From assembly GCA_030949405.1 (NCBI GenBank), contig JAUZSN010000002.1:2900553-2964552 (forward strand): a stretch of DNA of 64,000 nucleotides, written 5' to 3'. Below, piece by piece: positions 42,562-64,000 of the stretch; position 1 is the stretch's first letter; each line of letters begins with the position of its first letter. Source of the DNA: Methylococcales bacterium (GTDB taxonomy: Bacteria; Pseudomonadota; Gammaproteobacteria; Methylococcales; Methylomonadaceae). The notes under the pieces were generated by a model. That model did no database searches. It was not told where the DNA came from and saw only the letters and a list, made by a program, of their open reading frames with translations. The position numbers were made by a program, and so were the translations under genes.

Positions 42562-42876
42562 TGAAACCCAATCCTCTCTCTCAACAAGCGGTGAATCAAG
42601 CCGTGTTAGCCAATTCACTCCAACATCCATTCGTTTTATACTCCGCAGTGGCAGGCGTTCTTGCCATTGCTTCGGGTGTTGTCTTTAACTTAGGCAGCTT
42701 ACCGTTGATTGCATCAAGCACCCTAACGGTTATTTCAATCGGTAATTGGTTTTTTCAATTCTTTGCTCGCCGTGATGTTTATTTTCATGCCTATTTTTCT
42801 AAAGTTCATGCACGTTTAAAGCGAGAAAAAAAACAAAAATTGACTAAACTTAAAAAGGAATTACAACAAGTTGATA

Positions 42877-44709
42877 GTATCTACTTTAAATTTCAGGGTA
42901 AAACAAATATCAGACCTGCAAACTTTGCGCTTTTTGAGCGATAAGATTCGCCATAGACGGCATTTTGAATTCACCACTAACTCGGTCATAAACATAATCA
43001 TAAAAACTCACGGCTAGTTTTTTAGCCGTTTCAGCAAGACTCATAAAACTGTCTTTGATTTTCGTGCCTTTCTCATTTCGAGTCTGGAAGCTTATGTCTC
43101 GCGCACGCGCTTGTCTTCTTGCGCCAAGTTCGGCTGCATTGTTATGGAGTGGTAATTGTGGAAGCTCCAAAACTCGCAATAATTCAGTCTTTTTCGCCAG
43201 TGTTTTGGCGATGCGATCATTGAGGTCTTCATAATCGCTTGTGGTTGCAAACAATTCATTAAATCGCGTTAACAACCATGCCTTTTTATCGGGGCAGGGA
43301 TTTTTTTGATAGTTAAGCAACTCCTTATAATACTCCCAATAGTGCCCTCGAAAATCGGCTAATGCTTGCTGATGTATTTCCAGAATTGGACGGAGTTTTT
43401 GTAGTGGCGAGCATCGTGAACCCAGCATAACCCCAAATGTTCCGTCAGTAATTTGAATTGCGGCGCATCGTCTGCAAGCAAGGTTTCAATAACAGGAAAA
43501 TCCGTTTGTTGCTGATAATAGGCAATGGCACAAGCTTCGGTGACATGCGCTACCTGTCTCACGCCTAAGGTATTTAAGATCGCTAAGTGCAACTTAAATT
43601 GCGCTTCATTCATCACTGTATTGACAGGTATTTGAGCATCAACTTTTGCCCGTGCTTTATCAGCTAACTTGAACTCGTCAAGCAAGGATTGAGCCTGTTG
43701 ATTGTAGATATAATGGCGTGGCGCATAATCGGTCAGCACGTCCAGAACCGATAAACGGTTTTTGTGTTTGGTGGTGAAATAAGCGGTAAACAAGTCGTTG
43801 CAGACCACCTGACAATAGTGGTTATCACCGTTGACTCGCGCACTGGTATCATCAATCTGCCCGTAATCACTGTTGAGAATACCGCTGCGATAAAGTTCGC
43901 TTTTTTCCTGATGCGCCCAGTCATAACCGCCTGTCCATTGCTGAGAAACATAAGTCGGCGACACCACAATGCCAATATTTTCAAAAAAACCGACCATGGG
44001 TTTTTCGGTCACGCCCATCATCTTAAGCATGGGAATCAAGCTACGAATTCCAATACCAAATTCGCCCTGACCTCGAACGCCTTCAGGCAATTGGGCGCGG
44101 TAATACTTATTTTCAGAAGGTGAATAAAAAATCTCACGGAGATACTTAATATTATTGGTTTTGATGACAATGTCTTGAATCACCACTTCCGCAAAGCCTT
44201 TAGATACTAAGTCGCTAGGCAAGCCAGTTTTGTCGAGTAGGCATTTTAGCGTTTGGTCGATTTTAACTCGTGGGATCTTGGGTTTACGGCGGCGTTTTTT
44301 CTTATCCGAGTCCGTATTTTCAGTGTCGTTATTAGTTTCTTTTTGCGCGTCAACTTGTGCTTTTTTACGTTCGTCTTCGGATGAAATATCATCACCCTTA
44401 TTATTTTTATTGGGTTTGATATCAGGCTTTCCCTGCTCACCTTTCAAGCGATTAACCTCGTCACGAAGTTGCTGTAATTCAGTTTCTAAAGACAATTTAT
44501 CACTGGCTAAGCGTTCAATAAGATTGAATATTTTTTTGACAATATCCTGCGCTTCGCTACTTTCCATTTGAGCGATTTCTTGATAAATGGCGTTAGTTTC
44601 AGCCTGTAGGTCGTGGATATTCAAAGTATGTAAATGTTCGTTCTTTTATGATATGTTGTCAAATCTATTTTAGAAATTTTATCTTTACCCTGAGATTTAA
44701 AGTAGATAC
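42877..44709 (-). mobile_element. Full-length IS66-like element with target duplication
   Basis: 1,833 bp bounded by GTATCTACTTTAAATTTCAG and its near-inverse, flanked by 8-bp direct repeats AGTTGATA at 42869-42876 and 44710-44717. Eight-base duplications and a single tnpC-like gene without tnpA/tnpB match the ISBst12-type members of the IS66 family. This is the reference copy for the damaged ones at 950 and 5962. Confidence 0.92.
42910..44624 (-). pseudogene. IS66-like transposase (TnpC-like), one-base frameshift
   Basis: The first frame (43359-44624) has a leading coiled coil, a Lys/Arg-rich stretch (KKKRRRKPKIPR), DDTSARVNGDNHYCQV (first acidic residues) and LADDAPQFKLLTEHLGLCWVHDARH. The second frame (42910-43428) has LPLHNNAAELGARRQARARD with the catalytic Glu. 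They separate at five T (43396-43400), where the otherwise similar copy at 1469 has six; six T gives one protein of about 570 residues. So either this IS is inactive or the run was misread. Confidence 0.85.
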
Positions 44710-59715: not shown

Positions 59716-61323
59716 ATGTTTAATTCTAATTCTTTTGATGTCCTAATTATAGGCAGTGGTGCGGCAGGTTTAAGTCTTGCGCTCAAACTTGCTGATAATA
59801 CACGGGTTGCCGTTCTTTCTAAGTTCTCTTTAATCTCTGGCAGTACCTATTACGCCCAAGGAGGGATTTCAGCGGTTTTGGATAAAAGTGACTCTCTTAA
59901 CTCCCATATTGAAGACACCTTAAATGCAGGCGGCGGACTTTGTAATAAAGACATTGTAAAATTAACCGTCTCTCAGGGGAAACAAAGTATTGATTGGTTA
60001 CGGCAACAAGGGGTCGCGTTTACTGAAAAAATATCAGGGGAGTTACATTTAAACCGTGAAGGTGGCCATTCTCATCGGCGCATTGTTCATGCCACCGATG
60101 CGACTGGAAAAGCAATGTCGTTATCGTTAATCAAACGAGCGCGTGAACATTCAAATATTGAAATTTTAGAATATCATAATGCCATTGATTTAATTACCGC
60201 CGATAAAGGTAAAAAATCCGAAGAGACGCGTATTTTAGGCGCGTATGTTTTAGATACCCAAAATCAGCAGGTCAAGGCGATTGCAGCGCGAATTGTGGTT
60301 TTAGCTACAGGTGGAGCAAGCAAGGTCTACCTTTATTCAACTAACCCCCATATTTCAACGGGCGATGGCATTGCTTTAGCATGGCGATTAGGCTGTCATA
60401 TTAGTAATATGGAATTTATGCAGTTTCACCCGACCTGTCTTTATCATCCTAATGCTCGTTCCTTTTTAATTAGTGAGGCGGTACGCGGTGAAGGAGCGTT
60501 CCTTATCTTACCGAATGGTCAACGTTTCATGCAACACTATGATGCCCGTGCCGAACTTGCTCCGCGTGATATTGTCGCAAGGGCAATTGATAATGAAATG
60601 AAAACACATGGAATAGCCTGTGTTTATTTAGATATTAGCCATAAACCCTCTGACTTTATTAAACAGCATTTTCCGACAATTTACAGTCACTGTTTAAAAT
60701 TAGAGATTGATATTTGCAAGCAACCGATTCCTGTCGTCCCAGCGGCGCATTATACCTGTGGCGGCGTAGTAACGAATGCGGATGCTCAAACAAATATCCC
60801 TCGGCTTTATGCGATTGGTGAGGTGGCCTGTACGGGGTTACATGGGGCCAATCGAATGGCGAGTAATTCGTTATTAGAATGTTTGGTGTTTGCAGAACGC
60901 GCTTCAGTCGCTATTTTAAAGCAATTACCGACCTTAACCGATCTTAATACCAAGCTTCCTAAATGGGATGAATCACAAGTAACGGACTCCGATGAGGAGG
61001 TCGTTATCTCGCATAATTGGGATGAATTACGGCGTTTTATGTGGGATTATGTAGGCATTGTGCGAACCGATAAACGCTTACACCGTGCCATGCGGCGGAT
61101 TGAGTTATTAAAAGAAGAAATTAATGAATACTACACCCATTTTAAAATTAGTAGTGATTTGTTAGAATTACGAAACTTGGTGATTGTTGCCGAATTAATT
61201 GTGCGGTGCGCTCTACAGCGTAAAGAAAGTAGAGGGCTTCATTTTACTCAGGATTACCCTGACAGAGATGATAGCCAACCGGCAAAAAATAGTTTTTTAA
61301 ATCCTGATGATTTTAAAAATTGA
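59716..61323 (+). CDS. nadB: L-aspartate oxidase
   Basis: Oxidises L-aspartate to iminoaspartate for de novo NAD synthesis, with FAD. 535 residues, family length. N-terminal [18 protein letters not shown] fold, [36 protein letters not shown] near the active site, [15 protein letters not shown] and [24 protein letters not shown]. Divergent from rpoE, a standard gammaproteobacterial arrangement. Confidence 0.97.
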
Positions 61324-61634
61324 GGCGAGTGGGTAATAAATAGTTTGTTCCCAAGAGGAGTCCATCAGCTGTTAATGTAACGTAACTACTCAGGTTATTA
61401 TTTACTGTAGCCCGTATGTAGCTTGAGGAATACGGGATGTCTGGCAAAATTTTTTATGATATTTTTAAAAGCGTCCTAACGAATAACAGTACCCCTCCCC
61501 GTATTCCGCAAGCTACATACGGGCTACACAACTACCTGAGTAGTTACAATGAACCTTTTATTTCATGCTCGCCAATAGCTAACGTTATTGGACTAATGCG
61601 TTAGAACAGCAACGTTAGTTCTGATACTTTAATA
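61324..61634. other. Repeat-rich intergenic region between nadB and rpn copy 1
   Basis: 311 bp with no gene I can support. It holds the inverted-repeat element at 61382-61547 and, near 61573-61620, a smaller repeated GCTAACGTTATTGG / AACGTTAGTT arrangement. Both lie between convergent genes. Confidence 0.5.
61382..61547. repeat. 166-bp inverted-repeat element
   Basis: Outer arms GTAACTACTCAGGT (61382) and ACCTGAGTAGTTAC (to 61547); inner arms TGTAGCCCGTATGTAGCTTG (61406) and its inverse ending near 61528. The arms pair over more than 40 bp with small gaps, leaving a 60-bp AT-rich centre. It looks like a MITE or REP-type palindromic element. Confidence 0.65.
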
Positions 61635-62486
61635 TTACAGGCTCTGTAATTCTTGTTCAGAAATGCCTGTTATTTTAGAAATTAATGATAGATCAAGCCC
61701 TTCTGTTATCATGGCTTTAGCATTTTCTATTTTTTCTTGTTGCACGCCTTCTCTCATTGCTTTATGACATTCATCACTTAAGTATTGCTCATCAGAATAT
61801 TCATCTATCATCCGTGCAGCATCTTGTGGGCTAATGGTGTTCTTTTCTATCAATGGAAATATTTTTTGAATAGTATCGTTTTGATAATCTGTTTCTTCAA
61901 TGTGTTCATCTAAGCTATCATTAATCAGCCGTAACCATTCTTGATAGGGTTCAGGGGTTTTATCGTTTACATATTTAGGGCAGAGGTACACAATTTTATG
62001 CTCAGTTTCTGAAACAGTGCTGTGATCCAGTTTTCTGGGTTTAAAATCATTGATTAATATATCAGTTTTATGTTTATCGCCAGAGGTTAATACCACAATG
62101 GTATAAACATTCATCTTAGGTTTGTAATTACTGGCGCTTGTAATTTGATCTAGGAGTGCCACACAATGATAATGTAAAAACCGATCATAGTGATCTTGAT
62201 AGCGTCGGTGTTGTATGTCAATGATGAGATGATTTTTTTTATCTTCGGCATATAAATCAAAACGGCTATCGACATGACCTATGACTGGCGAAAATGATTT
62301 TTCGGTTTCTACTTTTTCAATTTCGATTTCAAGCCCGAGAATATCTTTAACAAATGCGGTAAAGATGGCGGGTTTAGAGAAGACTTTTTTAAAGATAACG
62401 CCGTAGCGTAGGGGAGCAACGTCAATCATTTGGAGGAGGCCTGTTGTACAATACATGGTGGGTGGATAAGCAATAATGTCATCCAT
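61635..62486 (-). CDS. Rpn family PD-(D/E)XK nuclease, copy 1
   Basis: 283 residues from the ATG at 62486 (a TTG precedes it). PLRYGVIFKKVFSKPAIFTAFVKDILGLE at the start, SRFDLYAEDKKNHLIIDIQHR with Asp and the D-x-Q pair of the nuclease core, and a C-terminal helical tail (HKAMREGVQQEKIENAKAMI) typical of Rpn/PDDEXK transposase-type proteins. RpnA-like proteins cleave DNA and raise recombination. This copy has a single EGV unit in the tail, while its two neighbours have four and seven EGxK units. Confidence 0.88.
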   Translation of the reverse strand: MDDIIAYPPTMYCTTGLLQMIDVAPLRYGVIFKKVFSKPAIFTAFVKDILGLEIEIEKVETEKSFSPVIGHVDSRFDLYAEDKKNHLIIDIQHRRYQDHYDRFLHYHCVALLDQITSASNYKPKMNVYTIVVLTSGDKHKTDILINDFKPRKLDHSTVSETEHKIVYLCPKYVNDKTPEPYQEWLRLINDSLDEHIEETDYQNDTIQKIFPLIEKNTISPQDAARMIDEYSDEQYLSDECHKAMREGVQQEKIENAKAMITEGLDLSLISKITGISEQELQSL

Positions 62487-62581
62487 CAAGGCGTTATTAT
62501 ACTATAAATGCTTATTCTATAGAATGTTACAATCTACCTCACTTTAACAGACCTCTTTTTTTACTCTGCCCCCCGTTATTT

Positions 62582-63468
62582 TTATAAGTTCTGTAATTCT
62601 TGTTCAGAAAAACCTGTTATTTTAGAAATTAATGACCCATCAAGCCCTTCTTTTATCATAGCTTTAGCATTTTCTATTTTTTCTTGTTTCAACCCTTCTT
62701 TCAGTCCTTCTTTTAATCCTTCTTTCAACCCTTCTCTCATTGCTTTATGACATTCATCACTTAAGTATTGCTCATCAGAATATTCATCTATCATCCGTGC
62801 AGCATCTTGTGGGCTAATGGTGTTCTTTTCTATCAATGGAAATATTTTTTGAATAGTATCGTTTTGATAATCTGTTTCTTCAATGTGTTCATCTAAGCTA
62901 TCATTAATCAGCCGTAACCATTCTTGATAGGGTTCAGGGGTTTTATCGTTTACATATTTAGGGCAGAGGTACACAATTTTATGCTCAGTTTCTGAAACAG
63001 TGCTGTGATCCAGTTTTCTGGGTTTAAAATCATTGATTAATATATCAGTTTTATGTTTATCGCCAGAGGTTAATACCACAATGGTATAAACATTCATCTT
63101 AGGTTTGTAATTACTGGCGCTTGTAATTTGATCTAGGAGTGCCACACAATGATAATGTAAAAACCGATCATAGTGATCTTGATAGCGTCGGTGTTGTATG
63201 TCAATGATGAGATGATTTTTTTTATCTTCGGCATATAAATCAAAACGGCTATCGACATGACCTATGACTGGCGAAAATGATTTTTCGGTTTCTACTTTTT
63301 CAATTTCGATTTCAAGCCCGAGAATATCTTTAACAAATGCGGTAAAGATGGCGGGTTTAGAGAAGACTTTTTAAAGATAACGCCGTAGCGTAGGGGAGCA
63401 ACGTCAATCATTTGGAGGAGGCCTGTTGTACAATACATGGTGGGTGGATAAGCAATAATGTCATCCAT
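62582..63468 (-). pseudogene. Rpn family nuclease, copy 2, frameshifted
   Basis: Near-identical to copy 1 from the ATG at 63468, but five T at 63368-63372 replace the six T of copy 1 (62395-62400), shifting the frame at FKKVF. Downstream, the frame from 63145 is intact and contains the tail with four EGLK units (REGLKEGLKEGLKEGLKQ). So only the N-terminal third is broken. The change may be a real mutation or a homopolymer misread. Confidence 0.85.
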
Positions 63469-63563
63469 CAAGGCGTTATTATACTATAAATGCTTATTCT
63501 ATAGAATGTTACAATCTACCTCACTTTAACAGACCTCTTTTTTTACTCTGCCCCCCGTTATTT

Positions 63564-64000
63564 TTATAAGTTCTGTAATTCTTGTTCAGAAAAACCTGTT
63601 ATTTTAGAAATTAATGACCCATCAAGCCCTTCTTTTATCATAGCTTTAGCATTTTCTATTTTTTCTTGTTTCAACCCTTCTTTCAGTCCTTCTTTTAATC
63701 CTTCTTTTAATCCTTCTTTTAATCCTTCTTTTACCCCTTCTTTCAACCCTTCTCTCATTGCTTTATGACATTCATCACTTAAGTATTGCTCATCAGAATA
63801 TTCATCTATCATCCGTGCAGCATCTTGTGGGCTAATGGTGTTCTTTTCTATCAATGGAAATATTTTTTGAATAGTATCGTTTTGATAATCTGTTTCTTCA
63901 ATGTGTTCATCTAAGCTATCATTAATCAGCCGTAACCATTCTTGATAGGGTTCAGGGGTTTTATCGTTTACATATTTAGGGCAGAGGTACACAATTTTAT
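63564..64000 (-). CDS. Rpn family nuclease, copy 3, incomplete at window edge
   Basis: C-terminal 140 or so residues of a third copy, continuing beyond the window. The tail has seven EGLK/EGVK units, more than copies 1 and 2. The visible sequence is otherwise identical to copy 2 apart from the repeat number. Whether the N-terminal part is intact cannot be seen. Confidence 0.85.
   Translation of the reverse strand, partial: KIVYLCPKYVNDKTPEPYQEWLRLINDSLDEHIEETDYQNDTIQKIFPLIEKNTISPQDAARMIDEYSDEQYLSDECHKAMREGLKEGVKEGLKEGLKEGLKEGLKEGLKQEKIENAKAMIKEGLDGSLISKITGFSEQELQNL

Follow-up and report, generated by a model that had tools for sequence, protein, structure and literature searches.

At least eight near-identical rpn genes lie in tandem on the minus strand of contig C2 of a Methylococcales bacterium, differing in the number of 12-bp repeat units in the C-terminal part of the gene. 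We interpret this locus, with a probability of about 0.6, as an amplified array of rpn toxin-antitoxin modules in which the pairing helix is varied by gain and loss of units. The window analysed is a stretch of 64,000 nucleotides (C2:2,900,553-2,964,552) from a 2.98-Mb genome of five contigs, of which C2 comprises 2,969,825 bp. A PF02461 (pmoA/amoA-type) protein is encoded in the genome (425 bits), and the array protein has few relatives in named genomes, one of them in a Methylococcaceae bin; together, these observations make a gammaproteobacterial methanotroph the most likely host.

Organization of the array

The array starts to the right of nadB (59716-61323) and occupies all of the 5.3 kb of contig C2 that lie beyond the window, ending within copy c8. 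Seven copies are whole and one is cut by the contig end, so that their number is a lower bound. The copies, of about 950 bp and 96-100% identical, recur with a periodicity of 947-1055 bp, and chance is no explanation for such identity.

The window includes three copies, all on the minus strand, the last of them only in part. The first, c1 (61635-62429), forms the left edge of the array and has an intact frame for a predicted PD-(D/E)XK Rpn nuclease of 264 aa, with a single unit (EGVQ); its upstream region is the first spacer (62430-62581). Copy c2 (62582-63411) contains four EGLK units (tract at 62683-62739) in an open tail frame, with the full-length frame broken, and is separated by the second spacer (63412-63563) from c3 (63564-64000, continuing to C2:2964982), which has seven units (tract at 63665-63757) and an intact frame of 288 aa. 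Both spacers are 152 bp long and identical in sequence. A preliminary description of the window had reported at least three rpn copies, identical spacers and one, four and seven units, in agreement with our results, and the count beyond position 64000 that it proposed, done here on the contig sequence, gave the minimum of eight.

A candidate sigma-70-like promoter (GTAACA-18-TATAGT, a consensus match only) is found in the spacers across the whole array, and a search for terminators within the array returned none. Bases 1-140 of C2 resemble the upstream spacer of the array genes (alignment score 83 versus a shuffle maximum of 56), suggesting that a circular chromosome was probably opened inside the array. 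The search for further copies in the genome covered the contigs other than C3 and C4, whose sequences consist of N throughout.

Other repeated elements occur in the window. Between nadB and the array there is a palindromic, MITE-like element of about 166 bp (61382-61547), with 31-bp arms that are 97% complementary and lie inside 23-bp arms; a second copy (86%) is found at C2:627666-627817, and several further places hold the core inverted repeat. Stretches at positions 950-1340, 2531-2653 and 42874-43267 of the window, and at 845-1238 of L011, at the other contig end, are near-identical (97-100%) and lie in a transposase-like frame, so they probably belong to a multi-copy insertion sequence. 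We also considered, and rejected, a conserved nadB-rpn neighbourhood: the gene downstream of nadB differs in three relatives, with an integrase-like end (G004), a tRNA-synthetase-like gene (G002) and a fabD-like gene (G005).

Reading frames and nuclease family

Only c1, c3, c4 and c5 have open full-length frames, with ATG-initiated products of 264, 288, 268 and 292 residues, respectively. Copies c2, c6 and c7 contain T5 in place of T6 at the same position near the gene start (near 63368 in c2), a shift predicted to abolish the full-length nuclease in all three; c2, read from its ATG, reaches a stop after 39 codons for this reason. The downstream, tail frame is open in these three copies, and c8 lost its start to the contig end. 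A reading of the window as three working nucleases is therefore not supported. A TTG-initiated frame of c1 reaches 62489, adding an N-terminal extension of 20 aa, but relatives use the same ATG, and these longer frames are thus probably too long.

The product of c1 matches PF12784 (PDDEXK_2) with 47 bits, above the cut-off of 27.4, and those of c5 and of a paralogue at 224 kb score similarly, in accordance with the Rpn/PD-(D/E)XK identity originally proposed. The NCBIfam Rpn model TIGR01784, at 45 bits, is below its cut-off of 52.1, yet it is the best family for c1 and aligns over nearly the full length. Residues D58, D71 and Q73 are invariant in six homologues and fit a D...(D/E)xQ active site of the PD-(D/E)XK type, as expected of the putative nucleases of the array; the more distant L023 and L022 show EIQ and DIQ, respectively, at the corresponding position. 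A role for Rpn as a transposase was also considered and set aside on the published view that rpn genes are not autonomous transposons.

The paralogue at 224 kb belongs to a second rpn cluster (C2:224-227 kb; L010 2486-3484 and 4313-4561), composed of an intact gene plus broken relics. Its intact gene has a far longer tail, with roughly 20 GMEK/GIEK units.

The tail resembles RpnS

Modelled with AlphaFold (pLDDT 87), the C-terminal 82 residues of c3 form a long helix (residues 7-60), which includes the repeats, followed by two short helices. The best match of this model in the PDB was RpnA-S of E. coli (7TH0), with a Foldseek probability of 0.99 and an E of 0.55; a second alignment to this structure covered 46 of 46 residues with an rmsd of 1.7, Z 7.2 and 28% identity. 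These Z and E values are modest for a short helical domain and alone are not decisive; the match carries weight because 7TH0 is the named relative, was the top hit in the PDB and is in line with a weak sequence match (profile search, E 0.26). The tail is thus modelled as an RpnS-like three-helix domain with a long first helix, as in 7TH0. The full-length model gave no usable fold (pLDDT 61), making a fold search meaningless, and the match returned by PADLOC was weak and limited to the repeat and C-terminal part.

A Met (MIDEYSD) is conserved within the gene about 20 residues ahead of the repeats, and putative RpnS-like antitoxins starting from it would span 62582-62794 in c2 and 63564-63812, the region modelled, in c3. 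The position of this putative internal start matches the published RpnS architecture, and its weak point is the Shine-Dalgarno sequence, with a duplex energy of only -0.7 in the array copies. Some 34 residues resembling the RpnS end come after the repeat; the repeat, placed at the C-terminal tail in the preliminary description, thus lies in the C-terminal part of the protein but not at its very end.

Repeat number varies by whole units

From c1 to c8, the numbers of 12-bp units (EGLK/EGVK/EGVQ) are 1, 4, 7, 2, 8, 7, 10 and 7. Lengths are not all distinct, since three of the eight copies share seven units, and the frameshifted copies hold four, seven and ten. The gradual increase along the array perceived at first thus disappears in the complete series; it arose because the window edge cuts the array within the third copy. 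Tract changes are in frame throughout the eight copies.

The long tracts share one fixed succession of codon variants and read GAAGGGTTGAAA, GAAGGGGTAAAA, n copies of GAAGGATTAAAA, m copies of GAAGGACTGAAA and, again, GAAGGGTTGAAA; n ranges from 2 to 4 and m from 1 to 4 in the tracts of c3 and c5-c8, with one mixed unit in c8. This A-B-C(n)-D(m)-E order suggests growth inside two homogeneous blocks, C and D, amplified separately, and such block-wise expansion fits unit duplication and is what slippage or unequal exchange would yield. The tandem duplication and the change in length by whole 12-bp units that had been anticipated from the window are thus consistent with the codon make-up of the tracts.

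The gene ahead of the tail is close to constant. Only two sites vary among all copies in the 618 bp of nuclease body before the internal Met, and, leaving the tail aside, the coding sequences differ mainly at the T6/T5 homopolymer. Conversely, the 105 bp after the repeat contain five variable sites among c2-c8 (5/105 vs 2/618; Fisher p = 0.001) and 11 when c1, treated separately because its end sits at the array edge, is included (11/105; p = 2e-8), these p-values being approximate, as linked sites are counted as independent. Against relatives, the body shows a dN of about 0.11-0.12 and an omega of 0.05-0.07 (two pairs with estimable dS, near saturation), indicative of purifying selection. The contrast with the tail could partly reflect relaxed constraint there and not diversifying selection.

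Repeat-length differences in relatives

Within the genus, homologues are mostly dispersed single genes with units of their own (GMEK, GIQE, GIEK), but close rpn pairs and triplets occur in G001, G004, G053 and G146. The initial view that these nucleases usually occur as dispersed single copies, making an array uncommon, thus has to be revised, as small tandem groups are present in several relatives.

Five loci from the same taxonomic family (G146:C88, G130:C1, G097:C2, G013:C1 and G099:C1) contain neighbouring paralogues that are 94-97% identical and whose tails differ by gaps of 12, 24 or 36 bp; G130 is a one-contig genome, and G013 and G097 are two-contig genomes. With four pairs pooled, mismatches were more frequent after the repeat gap than before it (47/598 vs 84/3083, p = 2e-8). 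A sixth pair (G013, 4.25 Mb) is without a repeat difference, and in the G013 pair, two small gaps close to where the gene starts, beside a masked stretch, were left uninterpreted. From these comparisons, repeat-length diversification between neighbours appears not to be rare in the family of the Methylococcales host, although genome counts are no guide to the frequency of arrays, which short-read assemblies would collapse.

In G013, G097 and G130 (L096, L097, L098), rpn copies adjoin or are interleaved with a small gene family that has MTTVTRDEVWEMFREVARRFEETD close to the start, and it is possible that this family represents a partner gene of rpn. Contig L022 (1-753), from Sulfurovum sp. bin170, encodes an Rpn that is 66% identical to the array protein over its best segment and has no repeats, probably owing to horizontal transfer or to a mis-binned contig. 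A search for relatives of the array protein in viral contigs found none, and that in plasmids gave no more than two distant matches, both in Aureibacter (26% identity).

A model for the array and its alternatives

The Rpn proteins of E. coli have nuclease activity that is inhibited by RpnS, a product translated from within the same gene (Zhong et al. 2023, PMC10327210). Their four-residue repeats vary by strain and lie in the first RpnS helix, beginning 8-20 residues after the Met; adding one repeat to RpnC abolished inhibition unless both partners had the added repeat, and RpnP2 protects against some phages (PMC10327210). For E. coli Rpn, an effect of the tail on assembly or activity, as raised in the preliminary description, is thus already published.

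In the model that we favour, a unit of about 1 kb, comprising the gene and a 152-bp spacer, would have been duplicated locally in tandem, the copies being near-identical over the nuclease domain through recent origin, gene conversion or both. Gain and loss of whole 12-bp units would then lengthen or shorten the first helix of the RpnS-like domain, which forms the dimer interface in E. coli RpnA. By general helix geometry, each four-residue unit should add about 6 Angstrom to the helix and turn it by about 40 degrees, so that pairing would be expected to favour partners of equal length, resulting in partly separate nuclease/inhibitor modules within one genome. By the published rule, copies of unequal length would inhibit one another poorly and the three seven-unit copies would cross-react, while the frameshifted copies would make at most an inhibitor, comparable to E. 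coli rpnS genes that stand alone. We infer internal RpnS translation, pairing by length, nuclease toxicity and an anti-phage role for the array. A bolder version, which we consider unlikely, is that of a length-coded toxin-antitoxin repertoire, in which otherwise identical nucleases are separated only by unit number, nuclease-dead copies serve as a bank of antitoxins with other lengths and exchange between copies creates new lengths.

Alternatively, the locus might be a neutral hotspot, that is, a selfish or redundant array, recently amplified, with free slippage, weak 3' constraint and decaying copies, and in which repeat length plays no part in pairing. The frameshift in three of the seven copies with a readable start, the recurrence of seven units and the presence of rpn relics with stops elsewhere in the genome (C2:226 kb, 1141 kb and 1529 kb) all agree with this possibility. 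However, it sits poorly with tract changes that are in frame in eight of eight copies, with a body almost without change except at the T6/T5 site, with the loss of inhibition caused by one repeat in RpnC (PMC10327210) and with the matching pattern at five other loci, and we regard it as rather unlikely.

It is also conceivable that the array is a contingency locus, in which recombination keeps reassorting tail lengths into new nuclease/inhibitor pairs, for example against changing phages. This is compatible with an array of length-varied modules, to which it adds ongoing exchange. All four combinations are present at columns 34 and 47 of the C-terminal region, a mosaic that suggests exchange between copies, and the near-identical bodies and spacers favour unequal crossing-over. 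Nevertheless, the mosaic is based on few sites and the case on one genome, and we view continuing reassortment as doubtful.

Lastly, long-repeat errors in assembly or consensus might account for the copy number, the T5/T6 difference and some tract lengths, given that C2 stops within an array copy, that the main non-tail coding difference is a homopolymer and that spacer homopolymers vary as well. This is very improbable, however, because tract, C-terminal haplotype and spacer homopolymers are combined differently in every copy and one- or two-contig relatives hold similar pairs, and also because seven copies show no variation in an A8 run of this gene and the start of C2 is as expected for a circle opened in the array.

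Comparison with known systems

Like E. coli RpnA-E and RpnP2 (COG5464), which are gene-within-gene toxin-antitoxins of the RpnL/RpnS type, the array proteins combine a PD-(D/E)XK nuclease domain, variable four-residue repeats that begin about 20 residues downstream of a conserved Met within the gene and a three-helix C-terminal domain, and their genes are duplicated in tandem. Unlike them, they match PF12784 and are encoded by at least eight near-identical, side-by-side copies with 1-10 repeats, three of which have a broken full-length frame. The five neighbouring rpn loci in the family contain only two or three copies, which are more diverged than those of the array and are in some cases interleaved with the small gene. 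HsdS of EcoR124I/II, which has either two or three TAEL repeats, offers a parallel (cited in PMC10327210): a helix changes in length with the count of 12-bp units, and specificity changes with it. In HsdS this concerns the spacing of DNA half-sites, whereas protein-protein pairing is expected for the array. Variable 12-bp repeats and rpn tandem arrays, which appear to come from tandem duplication, were both already published, and Zhong et al. left open how the repeats grow or shrink and what drives it (PMC10327210); what is new here is the diversification of repeat length among near-identical copies within one array. The array is a natural series, from one to ten units in an otherwise constant protein, that allows a direct test of whether toxin-antitoxin pairing depends on unit number alone and of how repeats expand between copies.
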